From positions 3,472,001 to 3,536,000 of the forward strand of contig NZ_CP095187.1 of NCBI RefSeq assembly GCF_022965755.1: a stretch of DNA of 64,000 nt, read 5' to 3'. Shown piece after piece: positions 50,880 to 60,835 of the stretch. The notes under the pieces are model-generated. The model saw nothing but the letters and a program-made list of their open reading frames with translations. It was not told the origin of the DNA and did not search any database. The DNA is from Pseudoxanthomonas sp. F37 (GTDB lineage Bacteria > Pseudomonadota > Gammaproteobacteria > Xanthomonadales > Xanthomonadaceae). Every line of letters starts with the position of its first letter. Positions within the stretch are counted from its first letter, which is position 1. A program made the translations under genes and the position numbers.

Positions 50880-52346
50880 ATGCATTCCATCCGCTTGTTC
50901 GCCGCCGTCGCCCTGGGCGCGACGATGGCCGCCGGCCCCACGCACGCCGATGCCGCGCCACCGCAGGAGCGCCCCATGCCGACATCGGCCACCGTGACCA
51001 TCTACACCACTGCACGCGACACCGGGCAACGCCTCAGCCAGGCCGGCACCGTCACCCTCAAAGGCGGCCACGCGCTGACCGAGGTCGAGAACTCGGTGTT
51101 CGTCGATCCCACGCGGCGCTTCCAGCCGCTGCTGGGCATCGGCGGCGCCATCACCGACTCCACCGCCGAGGTCTACGCCACGCTTTCGCCGGACAAGCGC
51201 GCCGAGTTCATGCGCGCCTATTACGACAGGGAGTCCGGCATCGGCTATTCGCTGGCCCGCACCACCATCCACAGCTCCGACTTCAGCCCGGCCAGCTACA
51301 CGTACGTGGAGGAAGGCGACAAGACGCTGGCCTCGTTCTCCATCGAGCACGATCGCCGGGCCCGCCTGCCGATGCTCAAGCAGGCCATCGCGGCCGCGGG
51401 CGGCGAGCTGCCGCTGTTCGCCAGCCCATGGAGCGCGCCGGCCTTCATGAAGACCACCGGGAACATGCTGCGCGGCGGCGCGCTGCTGCCCGAGTACCGG
51501 CAGGCGTGGGCGAACTACTTCGTGCGGTTCATCCAGGCCTACGAGAAGGAAGGCGTGCCGATCTGGGGCATCACCGTGCAGAACGAGCCGATGGCCACCC
51601 AGACCTGGGAGTCGATGCTGTACACGGCCGAGGAGGAACGCGACTTCCTGAAGGACCATCTGGGCCCGACGATGCACGCCGCCGGCTACGCCGACAAGAA
51701 GATCATCGTGTGGGACCACAACCGCGACATGATGCCGTACCGCGCGCAGGTGATCCTGGGCGACCCCGAAGCCGCCAAGTACGCCTGGGGACTGGGCTTC
51801 CACTGGTACGAGACCTGGGCCGGCTTCGATCCGATGTTCCGCAACGTGGCGGCCGTGACCGAGGCGTTCCCCGACAAGCCCGTGCTGCTGACGGAAGCGG
51901 CGGTGGAGAAGTTCGACCCGGCGCGCTACCAGCACTGGCCGAACGCCGAGCGCTACGGCACCTCGATGATCCACGACCTCAACAACGGCGCGGTGGGCTG
52001 GACCGACTGGAACATGCTGCTGGACGAGAAGGGCGGCCCCAACCACGTGGGCAACTACTGCTTCGCGCCGCTGCATGCCGACACGCGCACCGGCGAGCTG
52101 ATCTACACGCCCAGCTACTACTACATCGGCCACTTCTCCAGGTTCATCCGGCCGCAGGCGCACCGTGTCAGCACCGCCACCAGCCGCAGCACCCTGCTGG
52201 CCACGTCCTTCGTGAACCCCGACGGCCGCCTGGCGACCGTGGTGATGAATCCCACCGACAAGGAGATCGCCTACAACTTGTACGTGGGCCAGGCCTCGGC
52301 CGTGGTCACCATTCCGGCGCGCGCGATCCAGACGCTGGTGAACTGA
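50880..52346 (+). CDS. Secreted glycoside hydrolase family 30 (glucosylceramidase-like)
   Basis: A 488-residue secreted glycosidase. A signal peptide (ending PTHA-D) precedes the (beta/alpha)8 barrel. The acid/base is Glu236 in GITVQNEPMATQTW; the nucleophile is Glu339 in LLTEAAVEKF. LGIGGAITDSTAEVYATL and GIGYSLARTTIHSSDFS are GH30 signatures. The C-terminal beta-sandwich ends ATVVMNPTDKEIAYNLYVG. Known substrates of this branch are beta-glucosides, including beta-1,6-glucans and glucosylceramides. A GAGG box lies seven bases before the ATG. Confidence 0.93.
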   Translation: MHSIRLFAAVALGATMAAGPTHADAAPPQERPMPTSATVTIYTTARDTGQRLSQAGTVTLKGGHALTEVENSVFVDPTRRFQPLLGIGGAITDSTAEVYATLSPDKRAEFMRAYYDRESGIGYSLARTTIHSSDFSPASYTYVEEGDKTLASFSIEHDRRARLPMLKQAIAAAGGELPLFASPWSAPAFMKTTGNMLRGGALLPEYRQAWANYFVRFIQAYEKEGVPIWGITVQNEPMATQTWESMLYTAEEERDFLKDHLGPTMHAAGYADKKIIVWDHNRDMMPYRAQVILGDPEAAKYAWGLGFHWYETWAGFDPMFRNVAAVTEAFPDKPVLLTEAAVEKFDPARYQHWPNAERYGTSMIHDLNNGAVGWTDWNMLLDEKGGPNHVGNYCFAPLHADTRTGELIYTPSYYYIGHFSRFIRPQAHRVSTATSRSTLLATSFVNPDGRLATVVMNPTDKEIAYNLYVGQASAVVTIPARAIQTLVN

Positions 52347-52454: not shown

Positions 52455-53408
52455 TCACCGGCTGCACTGGGCCAGCTTCTGGCGTGCGTACCAAAGGGCG
52501 CGCCGCGCCAGCATGTAGGCCGCGTCCGCTTCGCGCGGCAACAGGTGTTCGGCGCGGACCGGGTCGGCGCCGTGCGCGACCGCGTACTCGATGCGCTCCA
52601 GCTGGGCCAGATGCAGGCGGACCGGGCGCGCCAGCGCGGACACCCGCGAGGCGCCGCACTGCGGAAACTCGCGCTCCAGGGCCGCCAGTTGTTCCCGCAG
52701 GGTGCGGCTGGCCGCGCCGTCGAGCCCCGGCGCCGGCTCTTCCGCGATGGGCGCGGCCTTGTAGGCGTCGCCCGTCGCTTCGCTGCCCAGGTCCGCCACC
52801 CGCTCGTGAAGCGCGGGATTGAAGCGCACCGGCGGCGGCGGCCGGGGGCGTGCCGGCTGGTCGCCATCGCCCAGCGGTATGTTCACCGCGGCGCCCGTGA
52901 CCGATCCATGCGCGTTCTCCAGCGCCGCATCGCCCGCCGTGCCCTTTCCAAGCCAGGCCTGGTCGAAGCGCGTGGCCTTGTAGTCGATGGGGTTGACGCG
53001 ATCGAAGGGCCCGCGAGCGCCGGCCTGGCGTCCGTCGGGCGTGCTGCCCGGTGGCCTGGCGGTCGCGGCCGGTGCGTTGCCGAGAACGTCGGGCAGGCGC
53101 AAGCGCCCGTCACGTCCGTACAGCAGCATGCGCGGAGCGGGCACGGTGGCGCGTGCGGGACCCGACGACCTCGCCGGTGGCGCGGGTGCCCCTGCCCCGG
53201 CTTCGCCGCGTGATGAGGCCCAGGCCGCGGCCGTGGCCGGACGGGAATGCGCCTCATCCGGGGCAGGGGCACGGGGGATGAAGCGCAGCCGCAACGCAGT
53301 CTCCCGCGCATCCCCGCTCCTCGGCGGCGAACGCTGCGACAGCAGTACCAGCGTGGCGAGAACGATGATCAGCAGGCTGCACGCGCCTGCGATCAGGCGG
53401 TCAAGCAT
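52455..53408 (-). CDS. Hypothetical membrane-anchored periplasmic protein
   Basis: A 317-residue protein with one N-terminal membrane helix (LIAGACSLLIIVLATLVLLS) and a Pro/Ala/Arg-rich linker (about residues 45-120). The C-terminal helical part (about 215-317) has SRTLREQLAALEREFPQCGA and LLPREADAAYMLARRALWYA, with two cysteines. No family is recognised. ATG at 53408 is preceded by GGGGA. It stands between the GH30 gene and the small lipoprotein remnant. Confidence 0.65.
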   Translation of the reverse strand: MLDRLIAGACSLLIIVLATLVLLSQRSPPRSGDARETALRLRFIPRAPAPDEAHSRPATAAAWASSRGEAGAGAPAPPARSSGPARATVPAPRMLLYGRDGRLRLPDVLGNAPAATARPPGSTPDGRQAGARGPFDRVNPIDYKATRFDQAWLGKGTAGDAALENAHGSVTGAAVNIPLGDGDQPARPRPPPPVRFNPALHERVADLGSEATGDAYKAAPIAEEPAPGLDGAASRTLREQLAALEREFPQCGASRVSALARPVRLHLAQLERIEYAVAHGADPVRAEHLLPREADAAYMLARRALWYARQKLAQCSR

Positions 53409-53507
53409 GTCGTCCCCTGTCCGGCGCGGATGCACCGCGTCGGGCGTGCAGGGCTCAAGCCGCACGCCGGATCGCGTCGCCAGGCAGGAGCGCACCCCCT
53501 CGGCGGG

Positions 53508-53898
53508 TCACGCAGGATCTTCTTCGTGTTCGTACCCTTCGAGTCGCGGCTCCTCACCCATCGCCTCCAGGCAGAGGTCGAGCAGCGCCCACTGATCGTC
53601 CGTCAACGTCGTCGCGGCATCCTCTTCTTCCGCCATGGGCGATGGCAGGTCGAGTTCGACCGCGCAGGCTTCCAGCGCCTTCTCCAACTCGAACTCCAGC
53701 CCGGGGGCCGGCGGCGGCACGGGATGGAGGCCATGCAGGGGGTAAGGCGCGTCGACGGGACCCCACGGGACGGGGAGGCCCCCCGGGCCCGAAGGACACC
53801 GGATGATGCGGCGCGCGGATGGGCTGCATGCAGCACGCCGCCAGGCCGGTGGTGATCAGCATCAGGAAAGCGGCGCGGGAAAACGCATGGTCGAACAA
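53508..53898 (-). pseudogene. Small lipoprotein gene, apparently frameshifted at a C6 tract
   Basis: Two overlapping minus-strand frames each look like half a protein. The upstream half (53898 down to about 53783) encodes a lipoprotein signal, AAFLMLITTGLAACC, then MQPIRAPHHPVSFGPGG. The downstream half (about 53780 to 53508) is open without a start of its own and reads LPVPWGPVDAPYPLHG, then an acidic tail with TLTDDQWALLDLCLEAMGEE. A one-base shift at the C6 run (53779-53784) would join them into a 130-residue lipoprotein. It may be a true pseudogene, a phase-variable gene, or a sequencing error. The GTG at 53720 could also start a 70-residue acidic protein. Confidence 0.4.
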
Positions 53899-54054
53899 GG
53901 GATCTTCTCACCGGAAGAGGCCGCAAGGGCACGGATGGGCAGGGCGGCATGGGGAGTGGACAGCGCAAGGGAGAGGCCTGCGAACCACTCCACCATGCCG
54001 GGCGGAACGCGGCCAGCATGGCCTGGCCGCGTGGCGCGGGAATGTCCGGTTGTG

Positions 54055-55032
54055 TCAGCGCGTGTCCGGCGCCCGCGCCGTCGTGCGCGGACTTCCCCGC
54101 GCCGCCAACGCGGACTCCACCCAGCGGCGCTGCGAAGCATCGAGCACGTCGCAGAACGCATCGCGCGCGTGCAGGGGTTCCAGGTTTCCGGCCTTCCACG
54201 GCTCGTCCGCGCGCAGCAGTTCCCCGGCGAGCGTGCGGTAGCGGGACCACAGCGCATCGTCCGCTTCGCAGCCGAGGAACGCCAGCACGCTGGCCAGTGT
54301 CGCGTGGGGCTCGCGCACCAGCGCTTCGTAGCTCACATGCAGGTGCCGCGGATCGCCCCGCCAGCGCTCGCTCTCCCGCCTGGCGGTGTCCCAGCGGTCC
54401 ACGCACCGCTCCAGCGACAGGAACGGTCGCCAGGCAGGATGATCGCGGGCGGCACGATAGAGCGAGCCGACGACCTGCGGGCCCTCGCGCTGCACATGCA
54501 GGAAGCGCACATCGGGCACCGTGGCGCGCAGATGGTCGATGTAGAACAGGTGATCGGGCGTCTTTTCCAGCCAGATCGGCTTGTGCAGGGCCAGCGCATG
54601 GGCGTCCAGGGTGCGCACGAACGCCCGCAGCTGAGCATCCAGCCACCATCGCTTCCGCTCGGGCATGAGCACCGGCAACGCGAGGCCGCGCAACGACGAC
54701 CATGCGCGCGCGGCGCGGCGCGGATCGACCAACGACCAGCGCACGAGGGCGTCGCGCCGCCAGCGCCTGAGGCGGGCGACGGGCGTGCGGGGTCGGTCGG
54801 CTTCGCAGCGACGGTGCTCCTCGCTGCCCAGCAGCAGCGGCAGGAAATGCGTTTCCGGCAGGGAGCGGATCTGCCGGTGCGCGTGCAGGAGCGACTGCAG
54901 CAGGGTCGTGCCGGACCGCGGGCATCCCACCAGGAACACGCGACGCCGGACATGCCCCGGCGCCATGCCGGCGGCGGCGTCCCGCAGGACCTCGGCCAGG
55001 CAGGCGTGCTGCCGCAGGCGGCGGGGGTTCAC
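54055..55032 (-). CDS. Sulfotransferase family protein
   Basis: A 325-residue PAPS-dependent sulfotransferase. The 5'-phosphosulfate loop GCPRSGTTLLQSLLHAHRQI is near residues 36-55. KPIWLEKTPDHLFYIDHLRA and VRFLHVQREGPQVVGSLYRA, the latter with the 3'-phosphate arginine, follow. The GTG at 55032 overlaps the upstream glycosyltransferase stop as GTGA. The acceptor is unknown; pairing with a glycosyltransferase suggests a glycan. Confidence 0.85.
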   Translation of the reverse strand: MNPRRLRQHACLAEVLRDAAAGMAPGHVRRRVFLVGCPRSGTTLLQSLLHAHRQIRSLPETHFLPLLLGSEEHRRCEADRPRTPVARLRRWRRDALVRWSLVDPRRAARAWSSLRGLALPVLMPERKRWWLDAQLRAFVRTLDAHALALHKPIWLEKTPDHLFYIDHLRATVPDVRFLHVQREGPQVVGSLYRAARDHPAWRPFLSLERCVDRWDTARRESERWRGDPRHLHVSYEALVREPHATLASVLAFLGCEADDALWSRYRTLAGELLRADEPWKAGNLEPLHARDAFCDVLDASQRRWVESALAARGSPRTTARAPDTR

Positions 55033-56039
55033 CCCGCGCGTCCGCTGGCCAGGCGCGGCGCCGCCTCGCCCAGCAGCAGGGGAACGCACGCCCGCACCCG
55101 TTGGTGGAACGTGCTGCGGCTGGCCAGATAATGGGCACGCGCGGCCTCGCCCATCGCGGCGCGCTGCCAGCCCGTGAGGCACAGCGCACGGTCGACCGCA
55201 CGTTCGATCGCCTCGATGGTCACCGGGTGCGTGGTGTCCAGCCCCTGGCGCCGCCCGGGCCGCGCCGCGATCAGCACGCCACGCTCGGGCGTCACGTGCT
55301 CGTTCATGGGGGCCGCATCGGTCGCCAGTACCACCGCACCGACACTCAGCGCCTCGACCAGATGGTGCCCGTACCCTTCCACTTCCGACGGACACACATG
55401 GAACTGGTGCCGGTTCTGCAGCCAGCGCAGCGCGCTGTCGTCCAGATGGCCGATGTGGTGCTCGATGTTGACCGCGGCCGGCCCGCGGCGCGCATGGCGC
55501 TGGGCCTGCACCACGGTCAGCCGCGGCCACTCCGGATGCAGGCGCCATGCCGCCAGCAGCACCTCGGTACCCTTGGCCGCGCTGCTGCCGGCGAGATGGA
55601 AGAAGGCGCGTTCGCGCGGCACGGACACGTCGCGCCGGTCATCGCTGGTGAAGCCGATGTAGGCGGTGGGGCATCCTCGCGCCTGGAAGATGCGCTGCGC
55701 ATGGCGGGTCTTGCACAGGACCAGGTCGAACCGCGGCAGCAGCGGCTGCCATCGGTCCAGCAGCCACTCGGGATTGGGCACCAGCACGTTGCGCCTGGAC
55801 AGCGGCAGACAGCGCGGATAGACCCGTTCGAGGAAGACCTGCACGTCGGTCCGGCCGTGCCGCAGCCGGCGAGCCCACAGGCCCAGCTGCATCGCCTTGC
55901 CCGAGCGGCCACCGGCCCCGAAGGCCACCCTTTCGCATTCCAGGCCGGCCTGCGAGAGGCCTTCCGCCATCAGGCGCAGGTCGCGGCTCAGGCCGGCTCC
56001 GTTGTCCCGGGTGAGCACGCGCAGGGAGGGAGCGGGCAT
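55029..56039 (-). CDS. Glycosyltransferase, GT-B fold
   Basis: A 336-residue glycosyltransferase resembling family 4. The N-terminal half contains VLTRDNGAGLSRDLRLMAEG; the C-terminal half has FFHLAGSSAAKGTEVLLAAW, HFHVCPSEVEGYGHHLVEAL (E-x7-E type) and LATDAAPMNEHVTPERGVLI. Donor and acceptor are unknown. First gene of a coupled pair with the sulfotransferase. Confidence 0.83.
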   Translation of the reverse strand: MPAPSLRVLTRDNGAGLSRDLRLMAEGLSQAGLECERVAFGAGGRSGKAMQLGLWARRLRHGRTDVQVFLERVYPRCLPLSRRNVLVPNPEWLLDRWQPLLPRFDLVLCKTRHAQRIFQARGCPTAYIGFTSDDRRDVSVPRERAFFHLAGSSAAKGTEVLLAAWRLHPEWPRLTVVQAQRHARRGPAAVNIEHHIGHLDDSALRWLQNRHQFHVCPSEVEGYGHHLVEALSVGAVVLATDAAPMNEHVTPERGVLIAARPGRRQGLDTTHPVTIEAIERAVDRALCLTGWQRAAMGEAARAHYLASRSTFHQRVRACVPLLLGEAAPRLASGRAG

Positions 56040-56164
56040 GGCAGGCACCTGCAGGGAGGAAACCCCGAGCCTGCGCGCGCGCTGTCGCGCGCGTTTGCCC
56101 GCCCGTGTCGACGCACGAGGCGTGCGCCGACACACGCCGCCACATGCCGGCACATCGACGCCAT

Positions 56165-56260
56165 GCGCGCCGGGCAGACTGCCCGGGTGTTGGCGACAGA
56201 CCGACCGTGTCCTGAATCCCTGGAACCCTTGCCGCCACGCCACGTGGCGGCGCCTTTTTC
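56165..56260 (+). ncRNA. Candidate small RNA ending at an orphan intrinsic terminator
   Basis: Within the 281-bp gap before the response regulator, a 6-bp hairpin (CCGGGC/GCCCGG, 56170-56186) is followed by about 44 largely unpaired bases and then a strong terminator. No plus-strand gene lies upstream to use that terminator. The 5' end is a guess; the RNA could instead be an attenuated leader of the two-component operon. Confidence 0.3.
56231..56259 (+). terminator. Strong orphan intrinsic terminator
   Basis: GCCGCCACG (56231-56239) pairs with CGTGGCGGC (56243-56251), followed by GCC and TTTTT (56255-56259). The plus-strand U-run makes direction clear. It is 61 bp upstream of the response regulator start. 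Confidence 0.8.
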
Positions 56261-56320
56261 CTCGGCGGCAGGTCCGGGCTGGCGCATACTTCCCAAGGAC
56301 GCCGACGGCGACGCTGCACG

Positions 56321-57040
56321 ATGGACCTGAGCTCCCACATCCTGGTGGTCGACGACGACCCCGAACTGCGCACGCTGATCGGCGATTTCCTGCGCGATCA
56401 CGGTTATCGCGTGGAGGTGGCGGGCGACGTGGCGGCGATGCGCGAGGCGATCGCGCGCCGTCGGCCGGACCTGGTGGTGCTCGACGTGATGATGCCCGGC
56501 GAGGATGGCCTGTCGGCGGCGCGCCGCCTGGCGAGCGAGACCGGCCCGCCGGTCATCATGCTCAGTGCGCTCGGCACCGATACCGACCGCATCATCGGCC
56601 TGGAGGTGGGTGCGGACGACTACCTCGCCAAGCCGTGCAATCCGCGCGAGCTGCTCGCGCGCATGCGGGCGCTGCTGCGGCGCAATCCGCCCGCCACGGA
56701 GAGCGAGCCGGCGCCGGCGGCCGGCATGCAGTACCGCTTCGACGGCTGGAGCCTGGATGTGGCACGCCGCGAGTTGCGCGACCCGACGGGGCTGCACATC
56801 ACGCTGTCCGATGGCGAATTCACCCTGCTGCGCACCTTCGTCGAGCACCCGCAGCGGGTACTGAGCCGCGACCAGTTGCTCGACTACGCGCGCGGGCACA
56901 ACGTCGATGTCTACGACCGCGCCATCGACAGCCAGGTGAGCCGCCTGCGCCGCAAGCTCAGCGAGCGCGGCGGTCCGGACATGATCCGGACGATCCGCAA
57001 CGAGGGCTACATGTTGCTGCCGTCGGTCGTGCGCCGGTGA
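56321..57040 (+). CDS. OmpR-family response regulator
   Basis: A 239-residue two-component regulator. The receiver domain has VVDDDPE, phospho-acceptor Asp55 in LVVLDVMMPGEDG, and GADDYLAKPCNPREL. The winged-helix domain has LSDGEFTLLRTFVEHPQRVL, and the recognition helix DRAIDSQVSRLRRKLSE. The stop overlaps the kinase start as GTGA, so the pair is coupled. Targets are unknown; the TonB-dependent receptor downstream is a candidate. Confidence 0.93.
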   Translation: MDLSSHILVVDDDPELRTLIGDFLRDHGYRVEVAGDVAAMREAIARRRPDLVVLDVMMPGEDGLSAARRLASETGPPVIMLSALGTDTDRIIGLEVGADDYLAKPCNPRELLARMRALLRRNPPATESEPAPAAGMQYRFDGWSLDVARRELRDPTGLHITLSDGEFTLLRTFVEHPQRVLSRDQLLDYARGHNVDVYDRAIDSQVSRLRRKLSERGGPDMIRTIRNEGYMLLPSVVRR

Positions 57041-58452
57041 CCACACGCCTGCGCCGCCTGCCGCTGTTCGCGCGGACGTTCCTGCTGCTGCTGGCGGCGC
57101 TGGCGGTTGCGCATGCCATCGGCATGGCGGTACTGCTGTACCACCATCCCGACGACGGCATCGCCTTCAGCGAACTGACCGCGCTGCTGTCCTCGCGCAT
57201 GCCCGCCACCGATCCGGACCTGAAGGTCTACGACGCCGCGCAACCGCCCACCCCGGATCCCGCGCGCTACCGCGCCTCACCGTTCGTGCGCGATCTGCTG
57301 GGCCAGTGGCTCGGCAGCGATGCGCAGCACGTCCGCTTCTACCACCTGGTGCGGCCGCAGCCGTTCTCGCCGGCACCGCGCGAACCTGCCGGGCCGCCCC
57401 CCATGGCCGGCGCCGGCCTGGGGGTCCCCCCGATGGATGGCGCCGCCCGGCCGCCGGAAGACGCAGGCGACCCGGCGGCGCAACGGTTCATGCTGGCGTG
57501 GCGACCGGATGCGCCGTTGCGGGGGGACTTCGTGGCCGCCTTCAAGCAGGCCGATGGGCGCTGGCGGGTGGTGGAGAACACCCGCAACCGCGCCAGCTTC
57601 GTCGCCCGCCTCGCCACGCTGTTCCTCGCCGGCATGCTGGGCCTGCTGCCGCTGGCCTGGTGGTTTTCGCGGGCGCTGGCCGCGCCCATCCGCCAGTTCA
57701 CGCGCGCGGCCGACCGCATGGGACGCGAAACCGGCGCGCCTGCCCTGCCCGTGACCGGTCCCAGCGAGTTCGCCAGCGCGGCCGCCGCCTTCAACGCCAT
57801 GCAGGCGCGCCTGGACCGCCTGCTGCAGGAGCGCGGCGAGATGGCGGGGGCGATCGCGCACGACCTGCGCACGCCGCTCGCGCGCCTGGCGTTCCGGCTG
57901 GACGCGCTGCCCGCGGAGAGCCGCGCCAAGGCCAGCGCCGACATCGCCGAGATGTCGCAGATGATCGATGCCACGCTCGCCTTCATCCACGACCAGAACC
58001 GGCGCGTGCTGCGCGAACCCCTCGATCTGCGCCTGTTGGTCGAAAGCGTGGTGGACAGCCTGCGCGACATGGGCCATGACGTGCGCGCCGATGCGGGCCC
58101 GCCCGCGCCGATGCGGGGCGATCCGGTGTCGCTGCGGCGCATGGTGGCGAATCTGGCCGAGAACGCCCTCAAGTACGGCCACCGCGCGCGCATCGCGCTG
58201 GCGGCCGAAGGCGACGGTTATCGCCTGGATGTGGACGACGAGGGCCCCGGCATCGACCCGGCGCAGGCCGAACAGCTGTTCGTGGCCTTCGTGCGTGGCG
58301 AGGCGTCGCGCAACCGGAGTACCGGCGGGATCGGCCTGGGACTGGCGTCGGTGAAGCACACCGTGCTCGCGCACGGCGGCCAGGTGCAGCTGTCCAATCG
58401 CAGCGAAGGCGGCCTGCGCGCCAGCGTCTACCTGCCGCGAGGCCTGGACTGA
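57037..58452 (+). CDS. HAMP-domain sensor histidine kinase
   Basis: A 471-residue inner-membrane kinase. TM1 is about residues 8-30, a periplasmic sensor follows (31-190, Pro-rich), TM2 is about 190-210, then HAMP. The H-box is GAIAHDLRTPLARLAFRL with His275. The ATP domain has NLAENALKYGH (N), VDDEGPGIDP (G1) and GGIGLGLASVKH (G2). It starts at GTG 57037 and ends 4 bp before the convergent TonB receptor stop. Confidence 0.94.
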   Translation: MTTRLRRLPLFARTFLLLLAALAVAHAIGMAVLLYHHPDDGIAFSELTALLSSRMPATDPDLKVYDAAQPPTPDPARYRASPFVRDLLGQWLGSDAQHVRFYHLVRPQPFSPAPREPAGPPPMAGAGLGVPPMDGAARPPEDAGDPAAQRFMLAWRPDAPLRGDFVAAFKQADGRWRVVENTRNRASFVARLATLFLAGMLGLLPLAWWFSRALAAPIRQFTRAADRMGRETGAPALPVTGPSEFASAAAAFNAMQARLDRLLQERGEMAGAIAHDLRTPLARLAFRLDALPAESRAKASADIAEMSQMIDATLAFIHDQNRRVLREPLDLRLLVESVVDSLRDMGHDVRADAGPPAPMRGDPVSLRRMVANLAENALKYGHRARIALAAEGDGYRLDVDDEGPGIDPAQAEQLFVAFVRGEASRNRSTGGIGLGLASVKHTVLAHGGQVQLSNRSEGGLRASVYLPRGLD

Positions 58453-58456
58453 CGCG

Positions 58457-60589
58457 TCATCGCGCAGTCCAGTGCCAGCGGGCGCCGACGGTGAAGGTGC
58501 GCCCTGCGCCGGGTTCGTAGAACCGTCCGTTGCCTTCGTTGACGATCACCGAGCCGATGTGGAACCGGTCCAGCGCGTTGTCGATGCGGACGAACGCCTG
58601 CAGGCGGCCGCTCGCCCACGACCGCTCGCGGCCTGCTTCCAGGTGCAGTACGCCATGGCCGGGCGCGCGCTCGCTGCCGGTGTCGTTGACGGTCACATCG
58701 CCCATGCCCACCAGCTGCGCCGAGGCCTGCCAGCGCTCGCCCCGCCAGCGCAGCCGCAGCGAGGCCTGTTGCCGTGCTATCCCGGGAATGCGCGTGCCCG
58801 CGGCGACCCGCACGCCGGGCGTGGTGCAGCCGGCGGCCGTGCAGATGGGGAAGCTGTCGCGGAACGTCGCGTCCAGCCATGTGTACGCGAACTGCACCTG
58901 CCACGCATCGCCGAGCGGCACGTCGGATTGCAGTTCGAGTCCTTGCCGGCGCGCGGCGCCGGCATTGCGGTAGCTGCTGCGTCCGCCGACATTGCGCGCC
59001 ACGGCGAGTTCGTCGTCGGTATCGGCACGGAACACCGCCGCCTCCAGCGTCGTCCCGTCCGACACCCGCCACTTCGTACCCAGCTCGACATTGCGGCTGA
59101 CCGCCGGACGCAGGTCGAACGCCAGGCCCGCGGCGCCATCGGCGCGGTAACCCAGTTCGTTGAAGGTCGGCGTCTCGAAGCCGCGCCCCCAGGAGGCGTA
59201 CAGGCGCCACGCCTCGTCCGGCGCGAACACCAGTCCCGCCACCGGCAGGGTGCGGTCGTAGACCACGCGCCCGCTGTCGTCGGGATTGGTCGCGGTGACG
59301 TACGCATCCCGGGACGTGAAGGTGATGCGGCTGCGGCGCGCGCCCGCCAGCAGCGACCAGCGCGGCGCGAACCGCCACCAGGCCTGCAGGTACTGGTCCG
59401 CGTTCTGCACCGTGTTGCGCTCGTCGCGCCGCAGCGCGCCGCGCACGCCCAGCGCCGTGCCGACGAAGTTCTCGTAGCCGCGGCGATGCTGGCGTTGCCG
59501 GTCCGCACCCAGGCCGGCCGCGAATTCGACGGGCCGGTCACCCAGGCGTCCGGCCCATGACCAGCGCAGGTCGGCGCCGCCATAGGCGTTGTCCAGGTCG
59601 ATCACGCCGCCCGAGTTCAGGGGATTGGCCTGCGCGCCGACCGGCAATGCGAGGAACTGCTCGACATCGCGCTGGCCGCCATAGCCCATCACCCGCACCT
59701 GGTGTCCGTCGCCGAACGGCAGCGCGTACACCGCGCCCACCTGATCCTGGCCCACCGACTTGCGCGTGTCGAACGCGGTGGCGACGGACGCAGCCTGGCG
59801 GGGCGATTGCCATGCCTGCGCCCGCGTCAGGCCCAGCGGATCCTGCGCATCGGGCGCGTGGAGACGATTGGCGACCAGATCCAGCGTGCCGGCGCCGCGG
59901 CGAAGGCGCAGCAGGATGTTCAACGACTCGCGGCGCGCGGCCGCGTGGTCGCGATAGCCGCGCGTATCGAACACCGACGCCGCCACGTTGTAACCCACGG
60001 CATCGCCGGCACCGCGCAGGCGCGCGCCCAGCACGGATGTGCCGTGGCTGCCGGCGCTGGCCTGCAGGCGGGCGTCGTGTCCTTCGTCCGGGATATCGCT
60101 CCATGCCTGGATCACGCCACCGGAAGAGTTGCCATGCAGGGCCGAGAACGGGCCCCGCAACACCTCCACGCGGTCCGCGCCCAGCATGCTGAAGTGCGAC
60201 ACCTGGCCCTGCCCGTCGGGCATGGTCGCCGGCACGCCGTCGGCGTACAGCCGCACGCCGCGTACGCCGAAGGTGGAGCGCGCACCGAACCCGCGGATCG
60301 ACAACTGGGTGTCCTGCGCGAAGTTCTGCCGCTCGCGCGCCTGTACGCCCGGTACGCCGTCCAGCGCCTCCGAGAGCGCGGCCTGCGTGCGCGCGCCTCC
60401 ATCCCCCATGGGCACCACGCTGATCGAGGCGGGCGTATCGAATGCGGTGACCGCTTCCAGCCGCGTGGCGGTCACCACCACACGGTCCAGGGTCTCGGCC
60501 GCGCGTGATGTGCCGGCTTCTCCGGTCAGCGCCAGGGGCGCCAGCGTGGCACCCCAGACCACACAACAGAATCGCGACATCGCATGCAT
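58457..60589 (-). CDS. TonB-dependent outer-membrane receptor (OMR1-like)
   Basis: A 710-residue receptor. A signal peptide (through about residue 29, SRA-A) precedes a TonB-box-like LDRVVVTATRLE. The plug domain has LSIRGFGARSTFGVRGVRLY, DGVPATMPDGQGQVSHFSML and EVLRGPFSALHGNSSGGVIQ; the 22-strand barrel ends with GARWHWTAR. The plug blocks resemble the Omr1-type receptors that are predicted to be thiamine-regulated in xanthomonads; this match is from memory and the ligand is unproven. ATG at 60589 (or MSRFCC at 60580) lacks a clear ribosome site. A perfect hairpin at 60600-60620 lies 11 bases upstream. Confidence 0.88.
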   Translation of the reverse strand: MHAMSRFCCVVWGATLAPLALTGEAGTSRAAETLDRVVVTATRLEAVTAFDTPASISVVPMGDGGARTQAALSEALDGVPGVQARERQNFAQDTQLSIRGFGARSTFGVRGVRLYADGVPATMPDGQGQVSHFSMLGADRVEVLRGPFSALHGNSSGGVIQAWSDIPDEGHDARLQASAGSHGTSVLGARLRGAGDAVGYNVAASVFDTRGYRDHAAARRESLNILLRLRRGAGTLDLVANRLHAPDAQDPLGLTRAQAWQSPRQAASVATAFDTRKSVGQDQVGAVYALPFGDGHQVRVMGYGGQRDVEQFLALPVGAQANPLNSGGVIDLDNAYGGADLRWSWAGRLGDRPVEFAAGLGADRQRQHRRGYENFVGTALGVRGALRRDERNTVQNADQYLQAWWRFAPRWSLLAGARRSRITFTSRDAYVTATNPDDSGRVVYDRTLPVAGLVFAPDEAWRLYASWGRGFETPTFNELGYRADGAAGLAFDLRPAVSRNVELGTKWRVSDGTTLEAAVFRADTDDELAVARNVGGRSSYRNAGAARRQGLELQSDVPLGDAWQVQFAYTWLDATFRDSFPICTAAGCTTPGVRVAAGTRIPGIARQQASLRLRWRGERWQASAQLVGMGDVTVNDTGSERAPGHGVLHLEAGRERSWASGRLQAFVRIDNALDRFHIGSVIVNEGNGRFYEPGAGRTFTVGARWHWTAR

Positions 60590-60835
60590 GCAGGTAACCG
60601 GCCGGCGCGGCACGCCGGCCCTGCGCGACCCGCGACCACGCGCGCGTAGCGCGCAGCACCGGTCGGTTGTCGCCGGGCGCCGACATTGAGCCCGAAACGA
60701 AGGAGTGGAACGTGGGCGGCAGCATATACCAGGTGTGGATTTCGCCATCTGCTCAGCCGGCGAGGCCGGCGCGACGGCAACCCGACCGCTCCGGTTGCGG
60801 CCAACGATCATCCCGGGCCTTCGTGCCGCGCGCGC

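Follow-up and report, generated by a model that had tools for sequence, protein, structure and literature searches.

In enterobacteria the small RNAs MicF, OmrA and OmrB are controlled by OmpR, and their genes, to our knowledge, do not lie beside ompR. In Vibrio harveyi the gene for the small RNA Qrr1 is located immediately upstream of luxO, with predicted regulator sites before qrr1 (excerpted text of PMC8043402). The well studied Xanthomonadaceae small RNA sX13 occurs in Pseudoxanthomonas too, always downstream of polA (excerpted text of PMC3771888). Small RNA prediction in Sinorhizobium meliloti counted orphan terminators and intergenic conservation among its scored features (excerpted text of PMC2573895).

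The locus described here lies in a stretch of 64,000 nt from Pseudoxanthomonas sp. F37, which is referred to in full as the window (70% G+C). An orphan terminator stands between a divergent gene and a two-component operon, and the features around it are listed below in window positions; L numbers denote copies of the regulator locus.

55029-56039, minus strand: divergent glycosyltransferase gene (Pfam Glycos_transf_1), with its start at 56039
56128-56157, no strand assigned: three tandem 10-bp repeats, CGACACACGC CGCCACATGC CGGCACATCG, recognized by lag-10 identity; candidate regulator site
56170-56186, plus strand: hairpin 1, either part of the RNA or a DNA element that surrounds the -10; its six-pair version is 92.9% paired in 7 genomes
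56175-56180, plus strand: CAGACT, a candidate for a weak -10; every copy has CANNCT, which in L008 reads CATACT
56187-56259, plus strand: proposed small RNA, inferred from conservation, covariation, model searches and the repeats
56189-56205, plus strand: hairpin 2, GTTGG / CCGAC with loop CGACAGA, within the block 56187-56212; 97.1% paired
56206-56230, plus strand: C-rich linker, less conserved; 56213-56229 is 47-82% identical to the window
56231-56259, plus strand: intrinsic terminator with a 9-bp perfect stem, 3-nt loop and T5, found by the strict scan and kept in L001-L007
56285-56290, plus strand: CATACT, past the terminator, likely -10 of the regulator's own promoter; best by matrix and identical in 6 genomes
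56321-57040, plus strand: response regulator gene, OmpR family (Pfam Response_reg, Trans_reg_C)
57037-58452, plus strand: sensor histidine kinase gene, overlapping the regulator gene; best NCBIfam EnvZ

The best NCBIfam match of the regulator is OmpR, at 231.7 bits and under that model's cut-off of 331; the EnvZ match of the kinase, at 182.4 bits, is under its cut-off of 415. Convergent with the kinase gene is a minus-strand TonB-dependent receptor gene (58457-60811), for which the best NCBIfam match is PqqU (672.7 bits, under the cut-off of 1200). On the far side of the glycosyltransferase gene, the stretch 52455-53898 holds two minus-strand genes: 52458-53495, encoding a protein without an NCBIfam match, and 53508-53720, encoding a small acidic or proline-rich protein whose relatives adjoin the regulator directly in L005, L007 and L009.

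With MicF, OmrA and OmrB the locus would share the control of a small RNA by an OmpR-family regulator, and no sequence relation to these RNAs is shown. The predicted layout is like that of Qrr1 beside LuxO, since a putative small RNA gene adjoins a response regulator gene and has candidate regulator sites in front; it differs in that qrr1 is opposite to luxO, whereas the Pseudoxanthomonas unit and the regulator gene share one orientation, and in that qrr1 uses sigma-54, whereas the neighbouring regulator here is OmpR-like (excerpted text of PMC8043402). Rfam revealed no sequence relation to Qrr1. The likeness to sX13 is that of a structured (here putative) small RNA in the same bacterial family with C-rich segments in both, but sX13 has C-rich loops and lies downstream of polA, whereas the present unit precedes a response regulator gene; its flanks are a glycosyltransferase and the regulator, not polA, and we rejected membership in sX13 (excerpted text of PMC3771888). 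The S. meliloti candidates share the type of evidence, but they come from another organism with other sequences, and they represent a finding method, not a family (excerpted text of PMC2573895).

At the gathering threshold there were no Rfam matches in the whole window, and in 56040-56340 there were four sub-threshold matches, the best with an E value of 0.34. That match, to CrfA of Caulobacter (minus strand, 56219-56319; 18.1 bits, threshold 38), is probably due to chance, and a match to ncS54 (plus strand, 56175-56258; 13.6 bits, threshold 43, E 1.7) was also dismissed as chance, though its extent matches the unit. Among the papers listed for Pseudoxanthomonas small RNAs, no title or abstract opening described such an RNA, and the titles and abstract openings listed for small RNAs linked to two-component systems in Xanthomonas contained nothing on the locus.

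A preliminary description of this DNA had noted a 9-bp G+C stem with a run of five T pointing along the plus strand, no plus-strand gene preceding it, and a second hairpin 60 bp upstream, and each of these observations stands. The stem arms are GCCGCCACG (56231-56239) and CGTGGCGGC (56243-56251), separated by the loop CCA and followed on the plus strand by GCC and then by T5 at 56255-56259. This G+C-rich stem, short loop and T tract directly behind are those of an intrinsic terminator. The second hairpin has 8-nt arms (56170-56177 and 56179-56186) and begins about 61 bp before the first. The preceding gene is the minus-strand glycosyltransferase gene; the preceding gene-like plus-strand frame, at 50880-52346, appears in the ORF list only.

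The strict scan, which demanded at least 8 pairs (G-U allowed), at least 5 G-C pairs and five consecutive T starting 0-4 nt past the stem, found just one site on both strands of the window, the terminator at 56231-56259, and none in any of 20 sequences from first-order resampling, of which one strand each was scanned. A loose scan of 54000-59000 also returned the terminator only, given twice as overlapping versions, and is not decisive alone because 1.2 sites are expected in shuffles. A less strict finder, for which 6 pairs and 5 T in 8 sufficed, placed a site in 11 of 318 window pieces of 400 nt and in 5 of 300 upstream regions after shuffling. Within the 3.97-Mb genome the hairpin pattern has a single location, and a dispersed repeat was therefore rejected, as was a minus-strand terminator, since the T tract is absent from the sequence of that strand. 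The terminator is real; termination at this site in the cell is predicted.

Close orthologues of the regulator (E at most 1e-90) were found in 14 of 38 Pseudoxanthomonas genomes, one with two copies, and family-wide orthologues (E at most 1e-75) in 84 of 395 genomes, genus members counted in. We examined 400 nt upstream of 37 regulator copies, the best-scoring ones with fetched loci (L001-L014, L031 and L032-L053). Eight of these regions (L001-L008) contain a hairpin with a T tract, and none of the other 29 does. Seven of the 38 Pseudoxanthomonas genomes have the terminator in the same position, preceded by a conserved segment, and L008 is a diverged eighth copy that keeps the same layout with a different terminator stem. 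The unit lies beside a response regulator gene in all 7 genomes that carry it and also in L008. A tree of 25 regulators places the seven closest copies in one clade (support 98/99), and L008 adjoins this clade with weaker support (84/61).

The divergent gene is a glycosyltransferase gene in 4 of the 7 genomes with the unit. The minus-strand frame beside the regulator in L005 and L007 encodes a small proline-rich protein instead, and L006, nearly identical to L005 in its upstream region, has no glycosyltransferase match. Since the divergent gene varies while the terminator stays, the terminator travels with the regulator gene and not with the upstream gene. The possibility that it terminates the upstream gene was rejected for L001-L007, because the preceding gene has minus-strand orientation and the terminator persists when that gene changes.

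Genome G035 carries two regulator copies: L008 (G035:C31), with the diverged unit behind a plus-strand TonB-dependent receptor frame, and L031 (G035:C30), which adjoins a divergent glycosyltransferase gene and lacks a terminator. By eye, TGTGTC ... GACACA inverted repeats were seen upstream of the regulator in seven terminator-less family relatives (L036, L038, L039, L042, L043, L050 and L052), followed by TATCAT in six of the seven. These inverted repeats are possibly a site of the same regulator in another layout.

The preliminary description had suggested a covariance search in relatives, and in the seven copies the three hairpins are kept. The alignment was sequence-only, and its seven rows are related, two of them near-identical, with the structure drawn from the same sequences. 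Of its 132 cells 97.0% pair, and 5 of 19 pairs are changed on both sides. Ten cells are doubly changed, against a shuffled mean of 4.3, and only 1 of 500 shuffles was as high; the covariation score exceeds those of all 500 shuffles and of every slid version. The count of further pair types in this seven-copy alignment did not rise over shuffles (242 of 500 as high). Independent pair changes are few because the seven copies are related and two are near-identical: three pairs are changed on both sides in hairpin 1 (7 genomes), one in hairpin 2, and one is compensated in the terminator stem of L001-L007. Hairpin 1 changes most and has G-U pairs, a mild argument for RNA, but for its core, GCANNCTGC, a DNA element is an alternative.

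Two models, R1 (hairpin 2 and terminator) and R2 (all three hairpins), were used to search for further members. Over the 38 genomes of the genus both found the same seven loci, at 79-101 bits with R1 and 97-122 bits with R2, and the next best match was at 28 bits in each case. Among 297 family genomes R1 returned above 29 bits only the 4 known members in the sample, and a model search of 397 genomes of the order returned above 30 bits only the two known members in that sample. Applied to 21 of the 30 other orthologous loci, R2 gave one clear match, in L008 (22.8 bits, E 1.7e-4; next best 12.4 bits), which lies upstream of the regulator and ends at the L008 terminator; two hairpin 1 pairs are non-standard in its alignment. 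Weak matches elsewhere, at about 30 bits or less, were set aside as ordinary terminators or chance: the block was absent by eye in 12 that were inspected, and 6 of the 12 come after an open frame on the same strand that spans 100 codons or more.

Conservation was compared by segment, with the window sequence as the identity reference for the other six copies. Fourfold-degenerate sites of the regulator gene are 58-78% identical, the block 73-96%, the terminator 70-93% and the repeats 60-93%; the repeats and the linker are not clearly over the fourfold-site level in the farther copies. Identity is 30-65% in the 20 nt past the terminator and 60-100% in the stretch with CATACT. These values indicate a conserved unit that stops at the terminator, then an unconserved spacer, and then a second conserved island before the regulator gene. 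The block has 0-4 mismatches in 6 tested copies with the unit and 5-7 in the 30 other orthologues, for which the average after shuffling is about 6; the block of genome G016, with 4 mismatches, equals the best of 50 shuffles.

The terminator could be a relic that once ended a lost upstream plus-strand gene and has no present role, a reading that L008 invites, for in this nearest outside branch a plus-strand TonB-dependent receptor frame lies upstream. Some 170 nt separate the end of that frame from the terminator, however, and the intervening sequence contains a large hairpin belonging to the frame. Seven genomes have retained the stem, the T tract and the block despite the divergence at fourfold sites. 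We regard a relic as very improbable indeed.

Possible promoters were scored in six genomes, L006 being left out as a near-copy of L005, with a -10 matrix of textbook sigma-70 values. No good -35 for CATACT was found in these genomes, except in G016. CANNCT at 56175-56180 is a poor -10, outside the 12 best positions of the scan. The main rival to a small RNA is an insulating terminator, which would block stray or antisense transcription from the divergent region and leave the CATACT promoter alone to drive the operon, with no functional small RNA. In favour of this, the terminator stands directly before the best regulator -10 and beside a divergent gene that varies, but an insulator needs neither the conserved block nor hairpin 2, which are found only with the terminator, and we consider this explanation unlikely.

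The other reading offered by the preliminary description was an attenuated leader: the regulator mRNA would start upstream of the terminator, and signal-relieved premature termination would set regulator expression. The regulator gene is indeed preceded by a conserved folded segment and a terminator of matching orientation, and the -10 matrix gives second rank to hexamers within the block, at 56208-56213. In 21 folds (7 genomes, three transcript choices), however, the terminator pairs with probability 0.75-1.00, and a fold competing with it was predicted in none. This firm pairing weakens the leader reading, as does the position of the best conserved regulator -10 downstream of the terminator, with weaker candidates before it, and the spacer past the terminator is unconserved. 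A regulated leader thus seems quite unlikely. A coding leader peptide was rejected, since short plus-strand frames over 56143-56216 are, by eye, not in frame in relatives.

Tandem repeats in front of a weak -10 are consistent with an activator of the OmpR family, as for PhoB and OmpR sites, and the three repeats are perhaps the regulator's own site; no paper on OmpR repeat boxes turned up in a literature search. A fourth unit, at 56158-56167, is weak. Lag-10 identity of the repeats is 0.66 over 7 copies (L006 left out, L008 in) vs 0.31 in shuffles, a control that flatters the repeats because the unit borders were chosen by eye; for L008 alone, 48 of 2000 shuffles were as high. In six copies a constant 17 nt separates the repeats from CANNCT; in L008 the distance is 7 nt. 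A 26-nt three-unit pattern (at most 3 mismatches) has one match each in 5 of 7 genomes, always at the locus of the unit, and none in G030 and G008; its reversed control has one match, in G021. A two-unit pattern (1 mismatch) gave 15 matches in 6 genomes, 8 at the locus and 7 elsewhere, and its control 6.

Conservation, covariation, co-occurrence and a candidate regulated promoter thus favour the small RNA over the leader, the two readings between which the preliminary description had left the choice, and it is the comparison across genomes that favours a small RNA gene. We judge it somewhat probable that a small RNA gene lies beside the two-component operon and is activated by the neighbouring regulator. 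Besides the elements established by sequence (the terminator, the conserved hairpins, the repeats and their distribution), this reading entails transcription, activation by the regulator and action on other mRNAs. The gene would be located between the divergent gene and the operon; the OmpR-family response regulator would bind the repeats at 56128-56157 and activate a promoter with the weak -10 CANNCT. Transcription would start near 56187, or near 56166, and end at 56259, giving an RNA of about 73 nt, or of about 94 nt if the first hairpin is included; the preliminary estimate had been about 90-100 nt. The shorter RNA would consist of hairpin 2, the C-rich linker and the terminator, and the regulator gene would be transcribed separately from the promoter with its -10, CATACT, just past the terminator. 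Predicted pairing with six neighbouring translation starts, several of them at positions guessed from ORFs, was no better than with shuffled controls.

Because the three-repeat pattern occurs once per genome and solely at the locus in 5 of 7 genomes, we also entertain, as a speculation with little probability, that the small RNA may be the principal output of the OmpR-like regulator, and perhaps its sole direct one, in a relay that resembles LuxO-Qrr but originated separately in a Pseudoxanthomonas subclade.

If the unit is transcribed, it would represent a Pseudoxanthomonas family of small RNAs linked to a sensor-regulator pair. It would also offer a simple case in which to study how a two-component regulator acquires a private RNA output, because the RNA is missing from relatives that have the same regulator.
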